NCBI GenBank assembly: GCA_002842575.1
Contig: PHDJ01000005.1
Location: 62,001 to 126,000, forward strand
Length of the DNA stretch: 64,000 nt
Direction of reading: 5' to 3'
Origin: Bacteroidetes bacterium HGW-Bacteroidetes-2
Lineage (GTDB): Bacteria; Bacteroidota; Bacteroidia; Flavobacteriales; Flavobacteriaceae
The notes under the pieces are model-generated. The model had not been told where the DNA came from. It saw nothing but the letters and a program-made list of their open reading frames with translations, and did not search any database. Each line of letters begins with the position of its first letter. The stretch's first letter is position 1. The position numbers were made by a program, and so were the translations under genes. Below, piece by piece: positions 5,846 through 45,702 of this stretch.

Positions 5846-6406
5846 CTACATAAACTCTATACTGTAAAGAAGTCCAAATCCGAAAGTATCAAAGCGTTTT
5901 CCGAAACTTTTAAAATTATATTCCGCAAAAAGATATAAACGTTCACTTAACGGCAATCTACCGTTAAATTTGAGTTGTAAGCCGTGACTTACATCTCCGC
6001 TGTTTATAAAAAATGTGGTTGTATCTGATCCGCTCTTGTTTATGGGTTCTAAATAAAGTACATATCCTAATCCGCCAAATACTTTAATTCTGAGTATTTT
6101 AAATATAGGGTAGTTTACTGAAAGTCCTATTTCACTGAATTGTTCATTATTACCTTTATTTCTTCGGAAATATGAACTGTACTCTGCAAGATAATAGAAT
6201 TTATGAAACGTATGATATCCTGCACGAAGTTGTATTGCCCATTCTTGCTGCAGACCTACGCTAATAAAGGGACCTACACCAAAATCAAATGTATCTTGTT
6301 GCCCGAAACTTCTGTTTGAAAAAAAGCATAGCATACAAAAAAGAAGACAACCAAAAAGTTTATTTTTTAATTTATTTACTTGCAAAAAGTTTAACATCTT
6401 GCTCAC
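5846..6406 (-). CDS. Putative outer-membrane beta-barrel protein
   Basis: Signal-peptide-like N-terminus; alternating aromatic strand pattern; start uncertain because the ORF overlaps the upstream gene. Confidence 0.5.
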   Translation of the reverse strand: MSKMLNFLQVNKLKNKLFGCLLFCMLCFFSNRSFGQQDTFDFGVGPFISVGLQQEWAIQLRAGYHTFHKFYYLAEYSSYFRRNKGNNEQFSEIGLSVNYPIFKILRIKVFGGLGYVLYLEPINKSGSDTTTFFINSGDVSHGLQLKFNGRLPLSERLYLFAEYNFKSFGKRFDTFGFGLLYSIEFM

Positions 6407-7535
6407 TTATTTCTTTTCCACCTAAAATAATAAGGCGTTCTATTACATTGCGTAATTCTCTTACATTGCCAGTCCAATCGTATTCTTGAATGAGTTTTAT
6501 GGCTTTTTTAGAAAATTCTTTTTTTGTTGTGCCCTGCTCAGTAGAAATTTTTTCTGTAAAAAAATCAACAAGTAATGGGATATCTTCTCTGCGCTCATTT
6601 AAGGAAGGAACTTGAATTAAAATAACGGCTAATCGATGGTATAAATCTTCGCGAAAACGTTTGTTTTTAATTTCTTCTTGTAGATTTTTATTCGTTGCAG
6701 CAACTACTCTAACATCTACCTTAATATCTTTATCGTTGCCAACCCGTTGTACTCTTCCTTCTTGCAGAGCACGAAGTACTTTAGCCTGAACCGAAAGACT
6801 CATATCGCCTATTTCATCCAGAAAAAGAGTGCCTCCGTTAGCCGCTTCAAATTTACCTGCTCGGTCTTTTACGGCTGAAGTAAATGCCCCTTTTACATGA
6901 CCAAAGAGTTCACTTTCTATTAATTCTGACGGAATAGCAGCACAATTTACTTCTATCATTGGGCCAGCTGCTCGTTCGCTTTTTTCATGAATCCAGTGAG
7001 CAACTAGTTCTTTTCCCGTTCCGTTTGGTCCTGTTATTAAAACTCTAGCTTCTGTTGGGGCTACTTTTTCTATAATTTCTTTAATCTTTTGAATAGGCTG
7101 CGACTCGCCTATCATTTCAAAATTTTTACTTACTTTACTTTTAAGTCTTTTATTTTCTACAACCAATTCTTTTCTATCTAAAGCAATGCGAACGGTGTTC
7201 AATAATCGGTTTAAATCTGGCGGTTTTGATATATAATCGAATGCACCTAAACGCATTGTGTTTACTGCTATATCTAGATCGCCGTGTCCAGAAATCATCA
7301 CCATCGGAATTTCTGGTTTTATTTTTTTTGTGGCTATTAATACTTCTACGCCATCCATTTTTGGCATTTTAATATCGCAAAGTATGAGGTCAAAATCTTC
7401 ATTTTTTATGAGTTCCATTCCCTCTAAACCATCTTCTGCTTCATAAACTTCATAGGTGTCATTTTCTTCAGAGAGAATTTTTTTTAGTACTCTGCGAATA
7501 GCAGCTTCATCTTCTATAAGTAATATTCTAGGCAT
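6372..7535 (-). CDS. Sigma-54-interacting response regulator (REC + AAA+), no obvious C-terminal Fis HTH
   Basis: REC domain (LLIEDEAAIRR, LILCDIKMPKMDG); AAA+ Walker A GPNGTGKE; GAFTSA loop; ends at LFASK shortly after WTGNVRELRNVIERLIIL. Confidence 0.9.
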   Translation of the reverse strand: MPRILLIEDEAAIRRVLKKILSEENDTYEVYEAEDGLEGMELIKNEDFDLILCDIKMPKMDGVEVLIATKKIKPEIPMVMISGHGDLDIAVNTMRLGAFDYISKPPDLNRLLNTVRIALDRKELVVENKRLKSKVSKNFEMIGESQPIQKIKEIIEKVAPTEARVLITGPNGTGKELVAHWIHEKSERAAGPMIEVNCAAIPSELIESELFGHVKGAFTSAVKDRAGKFEAANGGTLFLDEIGDMSLSVQAKVLRALQEGRVQRVGNDKDIKVDVRVVAATNKNLQEEIKNKRFREDLYHRLAVILIQVPSLNERREDIPLLVDFFTEKISTEQGTTKKEFSKKAIKLIQEYDWTGNVRELRNVIERLIILGGKEISEQDVKLFASK

Positions 7536-10962: not shown

Positions 10963-12078
10963 TTATGAAAACATATCTTTTACTTTTTCAAAAAATGATT
11001 TATCTTCTAGTTGCGGCTTGGGTTGAAAGTTACTATCGTTAGCCATTTTTTCAAAGAAATCTTTTTGTTCTTTAGAAAGAGTTTTAGGTGTCCAAACATT
11101 TATGTGAACAAGCAAATCGCCTGTTCCATAACCATTTATACTAGGAATGCCTTTATTTCGCAAGCGCAATATTTTTCCACTTTGTACGCCCTCTTCAATT
11201 TTTATTCGCACTTTACCACTAACGGTATCAATCTCTTTAGAAGCTCCTAGAGCTGCTTCAGAAAAACTTACATATAAGTCATAATGCAAATTATCGCCTT
11301 CTCGTTGTAAGGTTTCATGTACTTTTTCTTCAATAGCAACAAGAAGGTCACCTGGAATTCCATTCCCCGGTGCTTCATTCCCTTTGCCAGAAACTTTAAG
11401 CTGCATTCCATCAACAACTCCTGCTGGTATTTTTATTGAAACGGTTTCTTCAGTTAATAACATACCATCAGCATCGGCATTTGCAGGTTTTTTATCAATA
11501 ATTTGTCCTGAACCCCCACAAGTATTGCAAGGAGAAGATGTTTGCATTCTTCCTAAAATAGTATTTGTGATTCGCATTATTTGACCACTTCCATGGCAAG
11601 TAGAGCAGGTTTTATAGGTGGTTCCGTGAGCTAATTTTTTTCGTTTTACTTTTATTTTCTTTTCAACGCCATTTGCAACTTCTTCCAAAGTTAATACCAC
11701 CCGAATGCGAAGGTTACTTCCTTTCATTCTGCGTTGTCCTCCACCGCCAAAGCCACTAAAACCTGAAAAACCACCGCCTCCACCACCAAAAATATCTCCA
11801 AACTGACTAAAAATATCTTCCATGTTCATGCCTCCACCACTAAATCCTCCAGCACCATCAAAGGCTTGATGACCATACTGATCGTAACGCGCTTTTTTAT
11901 TGGGATCACTTAGGACTTCATAAGCTTCTGCGGCTTTTTTAAACATACCTTCCGCTTTTGGATCTCCCGGATTTTTGTCTGGATGGTGTTCAATGGCTTT
12001 TTTTCGATATGCCTTTTTTATTTCTGCAGCTGTTGCATTTTTAGAAATGCCTAATATGTCATAATAATCTTCTTTCAT
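10963..12078 (-). CDS. dnaJ: Chaperone DnaJ
   Basis: J-domain MKEDYYDILGISKNATAAEIKKAYR...HPDKNPGD, G/F region, CxxCxGxG zinc motifs. Confidence 0.96.
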   Translation of the reverse strand: MKEDYYDILGISKNATAAEIKKAYRKKAIEHHPDKNPGDPKAEGMFKKAAEAYEVLSDPNKKARYDQYGHQAFDGAGGFSGGGMNMEDIFSQFGDIFGGGGGGFSGFSGFGGGGQRRMKGSNLRIRVVLTLEEVANGVEKKIKVKRKKLAHGTTYKTCSTCHGSGQIMRITNTILGRMQTSSPCNTCGGSGQIIDKKPANADADGMLLTEETVSIKIPAGVVDGMQLKVSGKGNEAPGNGIPGDLLVAIEEKVHETLQREGDNLHYDLYVSFSEAALGASKEIDTVSGKVRIKIEEGVQSGKILRLRNKGIPSINGYGTGDLLVHINVWTPKTLSKEQKDFFEKMANDSNFQPKPQLEDKSFFEKVKDMFS

Positions 12079-12126: not shown

Positions 12127-12678
12127 TTATTGTCCTATGATTACTTTTGGATAACGTAAAACCTTATCTCCAATGGTATAGCCTTTTTCTACAACATCGA
12201 TAATTTTTCCTTTTAAATCCTCTGAAGGAGCGGGTATTTGTGTGATAGCTTCGTGATTATCTGCATTAAAAATTTCGCCTTGTTGAACTTCAACTATTTG
12301 CAATCCTTTACTTTTTAATGTTTCTTTTAATTTATTGTTAATAAGTTGAACCCCTTGAAAAAGTGAGTCATTTCCTTCTTTTTCAATTTGTATTAAGGCG
12401 CGGTCAAAATCATCTAAAACGGGCAATAAAGACTGAATAACCTCCTGACCTGCCGTTTTAAAGAGTTCTATGCGTTCTTTGTTTGTCCGCTTTTTATAAT
12501 TCTCAAATTCTGCAAAAAGTCGTAAAAAACGCTCTTTTTCTTTTATTAATTCTTCTTCTACAGAAATGATTTCTTCAGCAGTAACATTCTCTACATCTGT
12601 ATTATTTTCTACTGTAGCTGGGTTTATATCTTCTATTTTTGTTGCTTCTGTTTCTTTTTGTTTATTTTTCTTACTCAT
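12127..12678 (-). CDS. grpE: Nucleotide exchange factor GrpE
   Basis: FAEFENYKKRTNKERIELFKTAGQEVIQSLLPVLDDFDRAL; directly upstream of dnaJ; start at MSKKNK or at MRLP (12690). Confidence 0.93.
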   Translation of the reverse strand: MSKKNKQKETEATKIEDINPATVENNTDVENVTAEEIISVEEELIKEKERFLRLFAEFENYKKRTNKERIELFKTAGQEVIQSLLPVLDDFDRALIQIEKEGNDSLFQGVQLINNKLKETLKSKGLQIVEVQQGEIFNADNHEAITQIPAPSEDLKGKIIDVVEKGYTIGDKVLRYPKVIIGQ

Positions 12679-12714
12679 TGGAAGTCGCATTTTCTATTTT
12701 AACTTTTTACCATA

Positions 12715-12753
12715 CAAAAGTACTGCCAATAACATGTAAGTGCCAAAATGTCA
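12715..12753 (-). promoter_or_regulatory. grpE promoter element: TGACA-N3-TGGCA, N12, TGGCA-N6-TTG
   Basis: Minus-strand TGACATTTTGGCACTTACATGTTATTGGCAGTACTTTTG; same geometry as upstream of dnaK. Confidence 0.6.
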
Positions 12754-25942: not shown

Positions 25943-26542
25943 ATGAATTTTCTAGCCCATATCTATCTTTCTGGAAACAATGAAGAGGTCATCATTGGCA
26001 ACTTTATTGCCGATGGCATCAAAGGTAAAAAATATCAAAAATATCCCGATGGCATACAAAAAGGAATTTTACTACATCGCGAAATTGACACCTTTACCGA
26101 TGCACACCCCATTGTAAGGCAAAGCACTAAAAGACTTCACGAAAAATATGGGCATTATAGCGGTATTATCGTTGACATCCTTTATGACCATTTTTTAGCA
26201 AAAAACTGGAATACGTATAGTTCTATTCCTTTAGATACATTTGTAGACAACTTTTACCAATTACTCCATAATAATTTTGACCTTTTACCATTACGCATCC
26301 AAAAAATGATGCCTTTTATGATAGCCGATAATTGGTTATTGAGCTATGCCACGGTGCCAGGTATTAGTAAAATATTATACCAAATGAATTACCGCACAAA
26401 AAACAAATCTAAAATGAATTTTGCCGTTTTAGAGTTAGAGGAATATTATAATGCATTTGAAACCGAATTTACCTCCTTTTTTATAGAACTTAACAATTTT
26501 AGCACAACTAAATTAAAAGAAATATGCGATACATTTATATAG
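25943..26542 (+). CDS. ACP phosphodiesterase (AcpH-like, DUF479)
   Basis: MNFLAHIYLSGNNEEVIIGNFIADGIKG; GILLHREIDTFTDAHP; DILYDHFLAKNW. Confidence 0.9.
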   Translation: MNFLAHIYLSGNNEEVIIGNFIADGIKGKKYQKYPDGIQKGILLHREIDTFTDAHPIVRQSTKRLHEKYGHYSGIIVDILYDHFLAKNWNTYSSIPLDTFVDNFYQLLHNNFDLLPLRIQKMMPFMIADNWLLSYATVPGISKILYQMNYRTKNKSKMNFAVLELEEYYNAFETEFTSFFIELNNFSTTKLKEICDTFI

Positions 26543-43696: not shown

Positions 43697-45613
43697 CTAC
43701 TTCACTTCTTCAAAATCTACATCTTCTACATCACTGCTTTCTTTATCAGTTTCGTTACCGTTACTTGATGCTTCTGCTCCATCCCCACTTGAAGTTCCTC
43801 CTTGTGGTTCTGCTTGTGCTTTGTACATTTCTTCAGAAGCAACTTTCCAAGCTTCATTAATTTTGTCTAAAGCTGGTTGTATAACAGCAACTTCTTTCGT
43901 TTCAAAAGCTTTTTTCAATTCTTCCAAAGCATCTTCAATTGGTTTCTTTTTATCGGCAGATAATTTATCACCAAACTCGGTTAACTGGCTTTCGGTTTGA
44001 AAAATCATCGCATCTGCCTCATTCAATTTGTCGGCTTTTTCTTTTGCGATTTTATCGGATTCTGCATTTGCTTCGGCATCTGCTTTCATCTTTTTGATTT
44101 CATCTTCTGTCAATCCTGAAGAAGCTTCAATACGGATGTCTTGTGTCTTATTTGTTGCTTTATCTGTAGCGCTTACTTTAATGATACCGTTAGCATCAAT
44201 ATCAAAAGTTACTTCAATTTGCGGTGTACCCCTTCTAGATGGTGGGATTCCGTCAAGGTGAAAACGGCCTATGGTTTTATTATCTGTTGCCATTGGGCGT
44301 TCTCCTTGCAATACGTGAATCTCAACACTTGGTTGATTATCTGCTGCAGTAGAGAATACCTGTGACTTCTTTGTAGGGATGGTTGTGTTTGCCTCAATAA
44401 GTTTAGTCATCACACTTCCCATAGTTTCTATACCTAATGATAGTGGTGTAATGTCTAGAAGCAATACATCTTTTACATCACCGCTCAATACACCTCCTTG
44501 AATTGCTGCACCTACGGCAACTACCTCATCTGGATTAACACCTTTGCTTGGTGCTTTTCCGAAGAATTTTTCTACTGCTTCTTGCACTGCAGGAATACGG
44601 GTAGATCCACCTACTAATATAATTTCGTCGATATCGCTTTTAGATAATCCGGCAGCTTTTAGTGCTTTTTCACAAGGTGCTATCGTTCTTTTTACTAAAT
44701 CGTCTATTAATTGCTCAAATTTTGCTCTGCTTAAAGAACGCACCAAGTGTTTTGGTCCGCTTGCTGTAGCTGTAACATAAGGCAAGTTAATTTCAGTTTG
44801 TGCTGAAGAGGATAATTCAATTTTAGCTTTTTCAGCGGCTTCCTTTAAACGTTGTAACGCCATTGGGTCTTTGCGAAGATCCATATCTTCTTCTGCTTTA
44901 AACTCCTCTGCCAACCAATTGATGATTTTTTGATCTACATCATCCCCACCAAGGTGAGTATCCCCATCTGTGGATAGTACTTCAAATACGCCATCACCCA
45001 ACTCTAAGATGGAAACGTCATGCGTTCCTCCACCAAAGTCAAATACAACGATTTTTTGATCTTTTCCTTTTTTGTCTAACCCGTATGCTAATGCTGCAGC
45101 AGTTGGTTCATTGATAATACGTCTTACTTTTAAACCTGCAATTTCTCCCGCTTCTTTTGTAGCCTGACGTTGTGCATCATTAAAGTATGCTGGAACAGTA
45201 ATTACTGCTTCAGTAACGGTTTGTCCTAAATAATCTTCGGCAGTTTTCTTCATTTTTTGAAGAACCATAGCTGAAAGTTCTTGAGGAGTGTACATTCTTC
45301 CATCTATGTCTACACGTGCTGTATCGTTATCACCTTTAACCACTTTGTAAGCAGCATGTTCAGCTTCACTTTTAGACTCAGAATATTTATTTCCCATAAA
45401 ACGCTTTATAGAAGCAATGGTTTTAGTGGGATTAGTAACTGCCTGACGTTTTGCAGGGTCACCCACTTTAATTTCGCCACCTTCCACAAATGCAATTACA
45501 GATGGTGTTGTTCTTTTTCCTTCCGCATTAGGAATTACCGTTGGCTCGCTACCTTCCATTACGGCTACGCACGAGTTGGTTGTTCCTAAGTCGATTCCAA
45601 TTATTTTACTCAT
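43697..45613 (-). CDS. dnaK: Chaperone DnaK (Hsp70)
   Basis: [41 protein letters not shown]-terminal [11 protein letters not shown]. Confidence 0.98.
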
Positions 45614-45663
45614 AATTATTTTTATTTATTAATTTTCAACCTTTTAATTTTCTATCTGTTATT

Positions 45664-45702
45664 CAATGATTGTGCCAGCGGGTTAATTATGACATGTTGT
45701 CA
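45664..45702 (-). promoter_or_regulatory. dnaK promoter element: TGACA-N3-TGTCA, N12, TGGCA-N6-TTG
   Basis: Minus-strand TGACAACATGTCATAATTAACCCGCTGGCACAATCATTG. Confidence 0.65.

Follow-up and report, generated by a model that had tools for sequence, protein, structure and literature searches.

A sigma-54 promoter with a rigidly spaced upstream palindrome at chaperone genes of Bacteroidia and EBP1 as its most likely activator

The window analysed here is the whole stretch of 64,000 nucleotides from Bacteroidetes bacterium HGW-Bacteroidetes-2, a member of the Flavobacteriaceae whose genome comprises 3.0 Mb in 89 contigs. On its minus strand it encodes the chaperone DnaK (43697-45613; NCBIfam NF001413 and TIGR02350 above cut-off), the nucleotide exchange factor GrpE (12127-12690; NCBIfam GrpE models) and, directly downstream of grpE, DnaJ (10963-12078; NCBIfam DnaJ models). 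The N-termini of homologues suggest that grpE starts at an internal Met (MSKKNK). An earlier note on this DNA had claimed that dnaK and grpE are preceded by a bipartite element of identical spacing. Both copies were confirmed to the base, TGACAACATGTCATAATTAACCCGCTGGCACAATCATTG on the minus strand at 45702-45664 and TGACATTTTGGCACTTACATGTTATTGGCAGTACTTTTG on the minus strand at 12753-12715, with a gap of 12 in each. Counted from the first T of TGACA, the element consists of TGNCA at positions 1-5 and 9-13, an N12 spacer, TGGYA at 26-30, N6 and TTG at 37-39. Upstream of dnaK, the left half is the palindrome TGACA-ACA-TGTCA (45690-45702, minus strand), found at the same distance in relatives, and the right half is the sigma-54 -24/-12 element TGGCACAATCATTG (45664-45677, minus strand), from which a start near 45651 is inferred. 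Upstream of grpE, the palindrome TGACA-TTT-TGGCA (12741-12753, minus strand), conserved in the family, is followed by the -24/-12 element TGGCAGTACTTTTG (12715-12728, minus strand), identified from the sequence and its relatives, with an inferred start near 12702. The latter overlaps a sigma-A -7 box, TACTTTTG (12715-12722, minus strand), 21 nt downstream of the TTTTG of the palindrome, with an inferred start near 12710. Both palindromes are proposed below to be sites for a dimer of the protein EBP1, that of dnaK centred at about -45; binding data are available for neither.

When the whole window was searched with 3 mismatches allowed, the dnaK and grpE elements were the only matches. In 100 dinucleotide shuffles of the window a mean of 0.17 matches was obtained, and no shuffle reached two. 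The right half alone, TGGYA-N6-TTG, occurs 11 times, and TGNCA-N3-TGNCA precedes it at a gap of 12 only at dnaK and grpE; the other sequences have at least 5 mismatches at the palindrome position. A third strict palindrome of the window, TGCCA-CGG-TGCCA at 26347-26359, is located inside an ORF without a -24/-12 element at the right distance and is probably due to chance.

Comparison with other genomes established motif, geometry and regulon. The motif was found with at most 2 mismatches in 37 of 40 relatives, and a reversed control almost never matched. With the spacer left free between 2 and 32, an exact match was present in 143 of 151 Flavobacteriaceae genomes, and the reversed control yielded 0 throughout. 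Among the approximately 150 matches listed, the spacer measures 13 in seven, 11 in two and 12 in all the others. The motif is not due to chance. The opened matches lie in front of grpE, dnaK, htpG, groES and hsp20, less often in front of ftsY, yidC and a rhomboid protease gene; the few opened ones with 2-3 mismatches look random. A profile based on sequence alone ranked grpE, dnaK, groES, hsp20 and htpG as the top five in the genome of the window itself. There, the spacer at htpG is 13, and a weaker copy with a spacer of 11, AGACATTTTGTCG-N11-TGGCTTAGGATTTG, precedes clpB. The genome-wide scans scored only part of the candidates, and the list of regulon members should not be taken as complete. 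Absence of the motif from orthologous heat-shock genes would have refuted the earlier note; it was found upstream of dnaK, grpE, groES, htpG, hsp20 and clpB. This supports the dedicated chaperone regulon that had been postulated, for which heat induction is not shown. Likewise, the fixed distance suggested for the palindrome as a possible activator or repressor site is borne out by the free-spacer scan, in which a gap of 12 dominates and 11 and 13 are rare; direct evidence for a bound protein is lacking.

Beyond the family, 30 more distant genomes were compared by scoring upstream regions anchored on the protein instead of the motif. Sixteen of these genomes belong to other orders of the class. 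Both halves precede grpE in 14 of the 16, with a spacer of 12 or 13. At dnaK, the -24/-12 element is present in 15 of them and a palindrome is recognisable in about half; several dnaK promoters outside the Flavobacteriales display a clear -24/-12 element only. Shuffles of the anchored regions almost always gave 0/100. The two grpE misses, G184 and G278, are at least partly caused by a wrongly chosen start: In G184 the profile finds the element before grpE, and in G278 visual inspection reveals a poor, degenerate copy with CGGCA as -24 box. In families f24 and f35, which lie outside the class, the -24/-12 element of grpE is kept, and no recognisable palindrome was seen within 600 bp. Since some grpE genes outside the class retain the promoter without the palindrome, sigma-54 control probably predates this geometry.

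The left half was analysed in 66 elements. Although the grpE copy does not look like a palindrome, it shares the symmetry of the dnaK copy because TGNCA is self-complementary. Position 3 (A44/T15/C7) mirrors the complement of position 11 (A44/T19/C3), and T is avoided at position 0 just as it is in the complement of position 14. Judged from these frequencies, TGNCA-N3-TGNCA is one two-fold symmetric site. The N12 spacer is nearly devoid of information, with 0.17 bits per position compared with 1.7 to 2.1 in the boxes. In the flanks at chaperone promoters 0.08 bits per position were measured, and no further conserved upstream element was seen there. The information at the fixed box positions is inflated, as the 66 elements were picked by pattern. 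The spacer contrast, the symmetry between positions 3 and 11 and the T/A avoidance at positions 0 and 14 were not selected for.

The right half corresponds to a -24/-12 promoter of the sigma-54 type. In TGGYA-N6-TTG, the distance from GG to G is that of -24/-12 promoters, and the GG of the -24 box and the G of TTG are invariant in 66/66 elements of a set chosen with 2-3 mismatches allowed. In the -13/-12 GC dinucleotide, the G is invariant and C follows in only 19 of 66 elements; the window has A at dnaK and T at grpE. This lack of a conserved C weakens the sigma-54 assignment and does not exclude it. RpoN is present in 31/31 genomes examined (own copy on contig C74, 485 aa), which together with the GG/G spacing substantiates the sigma-54-like box of the earlier note. 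That reading also required mapped starts at such elements. In F. psychrophilum, the mapped starts of groESL, lon, dnaK, grpE-dnaJ, htpG, clpB and the rhomboid protease gene are assigned to the motif SM4 with a typical -24/-12 box (Guerin et al., 2021, PMC9723704); the start of the dnaK orthologue is thus among those mapped at an SM4 promoter, and the orthologue starts do carry a sigma-54 motif. The accessible part of that study describes the SM4 cluster as induced by osmotic pressure and during growth on blood agar, without a report on heat, and an inventory of sigma factors confined to sigma-A, sigma-54 and ECF (PMC9723704). A computational survey of sigma-54 regulons across the phylum found promoters enriched before GroEL, GroES, GrpE, DnaJ, DnaK and IbpA, with the highest values in Flavobacteriia (PLoS One, 2025, PMC12316311). 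The excerpt at hand of a TSS paper on B. thetaiotaomicron makes no mention of a sigma-54 motif (PMC7366714). Sigma-54 control of these chaperones has, hence, already been published; rpoN dependence in the organism of the window has not been shown. The absence of a CIRCE signature, also claimed before, is matched by the absence of HrcA (PF01628) from the own genome and from 146 of 149 class members. The only three members with HrcA (G380, G350 and G315; L277-L279) all belong to genus g261 of family f79, possibly with an acquired system.

Polymerase with sigma-54 depends on an AAA+ activator. Besides RpoN, the own genome encodes only two full PF00158 proteins, the enhancer-binding proteins EBP1 and EBP2. 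EBP1 is located on another contig, not in the window (L097:5479-6777). It comprises an AAA+ domain (residues 20-265; PF00158 score 228 bits) and a C-terminal Fis-type HTH (PF02954 HTH_8, residues 392-429), lacks an N-terminal regulatory domain and is the only EBP with a DNA-binding domain in this genome. In 17 orthologues, the G[AS]FTGA loop, K46, D111-E112 and the arginine-finger residues R166 and R172 are invariant, and the alignment of orthologues shows the same for the Walker motifs and the recognition helix of the HTH. In the AlphaFold model (mean pLDDT 73), the AAA+ core and the three-helix C-terminal HTH are both predicted with confidence. The linker of about 120 residues between them is mostly disordered apart from one long helix (280-308). 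This helix is conserved (EREILYKVLFDM...DLKKL; consensus EREILYKVLFDMKxDxNDLKKLTLEL) and is a candidate for a partner docking site or a dimerisation helix. EBP1 is found in 118/118 Bacteroidota genomes, and in Flavobacteriaceae its locus always reads topA / miaB-EBP1-lptE-tpr-secG-groES-groEL. Bacteroidia-type EBP1 proteins with 72% and 53% identity also lie behind a palindrome on contigs titled Rhizobium sp. Q54 and Caulobacteraceae (L288, L329), which are probably misbinned metagenome contigs.

EBP2 (6372-7535, minus strand) was attractive at first because it sits in the window itself, beyond grpE-dnaJ. It combines a receiver domain (PF00072) with a sigma-54 AAA+ domain (PF00158), and an activator of the chaperones that answers a sensor kinase could be built in this way; its position on the grpE-dnaJ side and its conservation in the family would agree with such a role. 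However, it has no HTH, its orthologues (387-390 aa) likewise end after the AAA+ lid, and no DNA-binding domain is present in any orthologue examined. EBP2 was, therefore, rejected as reader of the palindrome. In addition, its GAFTGA loop reads GAFTSA in the own genome and GAFTSA or GSFTGA in the orthologues checked, and it is absent from G278, where RpoN and the dnaK element persist. An EBP2-driven chaperone response is accordingly very unlikely. In G278, EBP1 is the single PF00158 protein. This relative has RpoN and keeps both the palindrome upstream of miaB-EBP1 and a recognisable, weaker dnaK element.

Comparison also revealed the palindrome at the operon of EBP1. The strict TGNCA-N3-TGNCA was found upstream of miaB in 49 of 55 miaB-EBP1 operons. 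In the named operons it is present in 31 of 35, compared with a background of 0.012 per 310 bp calculated from its density elsewhere in the same loci; the named records that have it include Flavobacterium, Gillisia, Psychroflexus, Tenacibaculum, Chryseobacterium, Pedobacter, Chitinophaga, Ferruginibacter and Dyadobacter. A -24/-12 element after the palindrome was found in none of the 49 (0/49). Instead, a sigma-A -7 box similar to TAnnTTTG lies 16-21 nt downstream of it in 43 of 49; the own-genome site reads TGCCACTTTGTCA ... TATCTTTG. At this distance, the TTG of the second half-site stands at the expected -33. A palindrome that overlaps the -33 region of the sigma-A promoter of the operon suggests that EBP1 may repress its own synthesis, which is an inference. 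In the loci of Bacteroidales and Capnocytophaga that were seen, EBP1 is not encoded behind miaB, and no strict palindrome was found directly upstream of EBP1.

That EBP1 reads the palindrome is inferred, too, and there are no data here on what binds it. A transcription factor other than an EBP could occupy the site at the chaperone genes and at the EBP1 operon, while EBP1 or EBP2 acts without reading it. EBPs without DNA-binding domain that work from solution do exist (PMC3844500), and EBP2 is built so. Yet the HTH of EBP1 is fully conserved with an invariant recognition helix, the palindrome marks the operon of EBP1 itself, and the uninformative flanks of the chaperone promoters (0.08 bits per position) leave no other conserved element upstream. 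Such a factor would have to be assumed as a second universal regulator, and we regard its involvement as unlikely, though not as far-fetched.

The earlier note had cautioned that the grpE copy can also be read as a sigma-A -7 box. This proved correct: TAnnTTTG coincides with bases of the element in 13 of 20 grpE elements, where it is perfect and stands at the distance from the palindrome that is typical of the EBP1 operon. It was found in none of 50 dnaK, htpG, groES and hsp20 elements. This distribution identifies sigma-54 as the common denominator, and grpE seems, from its sequence, to have two overlapping promoters. Transcription of grpE is predicted to begin at two sites separated by about 8 nt, near 12702 with sigma-54 and near 12710 with sigma-A. 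The sigma-A start would be basal and may be repressed by EBP1, and the sigma-54 start would be activated by it. The grpE boxes, with the palindrome covering a possible -33, and the location of the EBP1-operon site on a sigma-A promoter could also be taken to mean that the palindrome is a plain heat-shock repressor operator over sigma-A promoters and that the likeness of TGGCA-N6-TTG to sigma-54 promoters is fortuitous. This is contradicted by the 0/50 for the -7 box in the other elements, by the near invariance of TGGYA-N6-TTG at fixed distance and by the absence of HrcA. Furthermore, the published assignment of the F. psychrophilum starts is to SM4, a sigma-54 motif (PMC9723704). A mere operator at these genes can hardly be upheld.

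Most likely, EBP1 is the proteostasis activator of Bacteroidia and acts from a rigid promoter-proximal site; this assessment is based on comparative sequence data, and binding, heat induction and the signal are inferred or untested. TGNCA-N3-TGNCA, which is centred some 45 bp ahead of the start and shares its helix face with the -24 box, would be bound by an EBP1 dimer. The centre of the palindrome (position 7) and the GG of the -24 box (positions 27-28) are 20-21 bp apart, i.e. two helical turns, and spacers of 11 and 13 shift the helical phase by only a tenth of a turn. There, the dimer is inferred to seed or dock the hexamer directly beside the closed complex. EBP1 would remodel sigma-54 polymerase on dnaK, grpE-dnaJ, groESL, htpG, clpB and hsp20, and direct contact with the polymerase is one possible reason for the rigid spacing. 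At its own operon, bound EBP1 would block sigma-A polymerase and, by this means, establish a negative feedback loop. EBP1 lacks a sensor domain, so that its control must come in trans. It might be kept inactive by a chaperone or some other partner until misfolded protein titrates this partner away, an inference that draws on PspF-PspA, HrcA-GroEL and sigma-32-DnaK. A chaperone as inhibitor of EBP1 is an attractive analogy, which is untested. Altogether, we consider it probable that these genes have a sigma-54 promoter with a rigid proximal site and that EBP1 binds the palindrome, activates the chaperones, represses its own operon and is controlled in trans; binding, knock-out and heat-shock data do not exist. 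Points that speak against this reading are the variable base after the G of the -12 box, the dnaK promoters of other orders with a clear -24/-12 element only, the poor elements of G278, and the lack of a palindrome at lon and of a strict one directly upstream of EBP1 in Bacteroidales. Only tentatively, and with some reserve, it can be proposed that proteostasis in Bacteroidota is governed by EBP1 as its ancestral, dedicated regulator. It would be a sensorless protein set by free chaperone that acts at a fixed distance from the same helix face without looping, and the sequence downstream of the palindrome would decide between activation and repression.

Enhancers of PspF are conventional upstream sites. 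The Fis-type HTH of NorR binds short inverted repeats, GTCA-N3-TGAC, and the half-site spacing is similar in the EBP1 palindrome. NorR requires three upstream sites (PMC2941729), whereas, judged from the sequence, a single site fixed at -45 is enough here. PspF of the E. coli phage-shock system resembles EBP1 as a sigma-54 AAA+ protein without N-terminal regulatory domain, with a C-terminal HTH and a stress regulon; PspA acts in trans to keep it inactive (PMC3791423). In contrast to PspF, EBP1 has the linker of about 120 residues with one conserved helix and other targets. Conventional sigma-54 enhancers are commonly located 70-150 bp upstream at quite variable positions (PMC3844500). A distal enhancer of this kind is not what is found here: Only gaps of 11-13 occurred, despite 2-32 being allowed, and the centre is near -45. 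HrcA/CIRCE and sigma-32 systems share the target genes and the feedback on the operon of the regulator, but promoter and protein type are unrelated.

The SM4 promoters of F. psychrophilum comprise the same gene set and the same -24/-12 box, and three PF00158 proteins are named as possible activators; an upstream palindrome, a fixed spacing or an activator of the chaperone cluster is not mentioned in the portion of that paper available to us (PMC9723704). The phylum-wide survey, in its available portion, uses a promoter matrix only and names neither an activator nor an upstream element (PMC12316311). A literature search for the palindrome, for a heat-shock activator of Bacteroidota and for rpoN-controlled chaperones retrieved only these two papers; subscription journals were not covered, and absence is not proven. 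Within the searchable literature, the fixed symmetric site, the tentative assignment to EBP1 and the putative autoregulatory copy appear to be new. In Bacteroidia, which lack HrcA (3 of 149 genomes have it) and, as far as the F. psychrophilum inventory shows (PMC9723704), sigma-32, the regulator of chaperones has remained unnamed in this literature. The question concerns gut, oral, marine and fish-associated members of the class. A single candidate protein, together with a DNA site and a geometry, can now be offered for laboratory testing. They would exemplify a sigma-54 activator placed rigidly and close to its promoter, as opposed to the distant, flexible enhancer of textbooks.

Three further upstream regions are of note. 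TGCCA-AGC-TGGCA upstream of groES was dropped as a second palindrome: Relatives show a stem TGCCAGC...GCTGGCATTTTTT, the apparent terminator of the secG operon. The arms of this stem (TGCCAGC...GCTGGCA; L158-L163) match the TGNCA half-site, either by chance or because the terminator doubles as a binding site. Upstream of lon (L119/L362; own genome C46:44544), a clear -24/-12 element, TGGCATAACTATTG, is present without a palindrome; lon shares a co-expression cluster with the chaperone genes in F. psychrophilum (PMC9723704). Upstream of hsp20 (L109/L126; own genome C30:6298-6367), two palindromes, AGACATTTTGGCA and AGACATTATGACA, are situated before the sigma-54 promoter at a distance of 32 bp from each other, corresponding to about three helical turns. 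Unlike the groES one, the second hsp20 palindrome has no terminator explanation. Many hsp20 relatives have T(T/G)GNCA further upstream as well.
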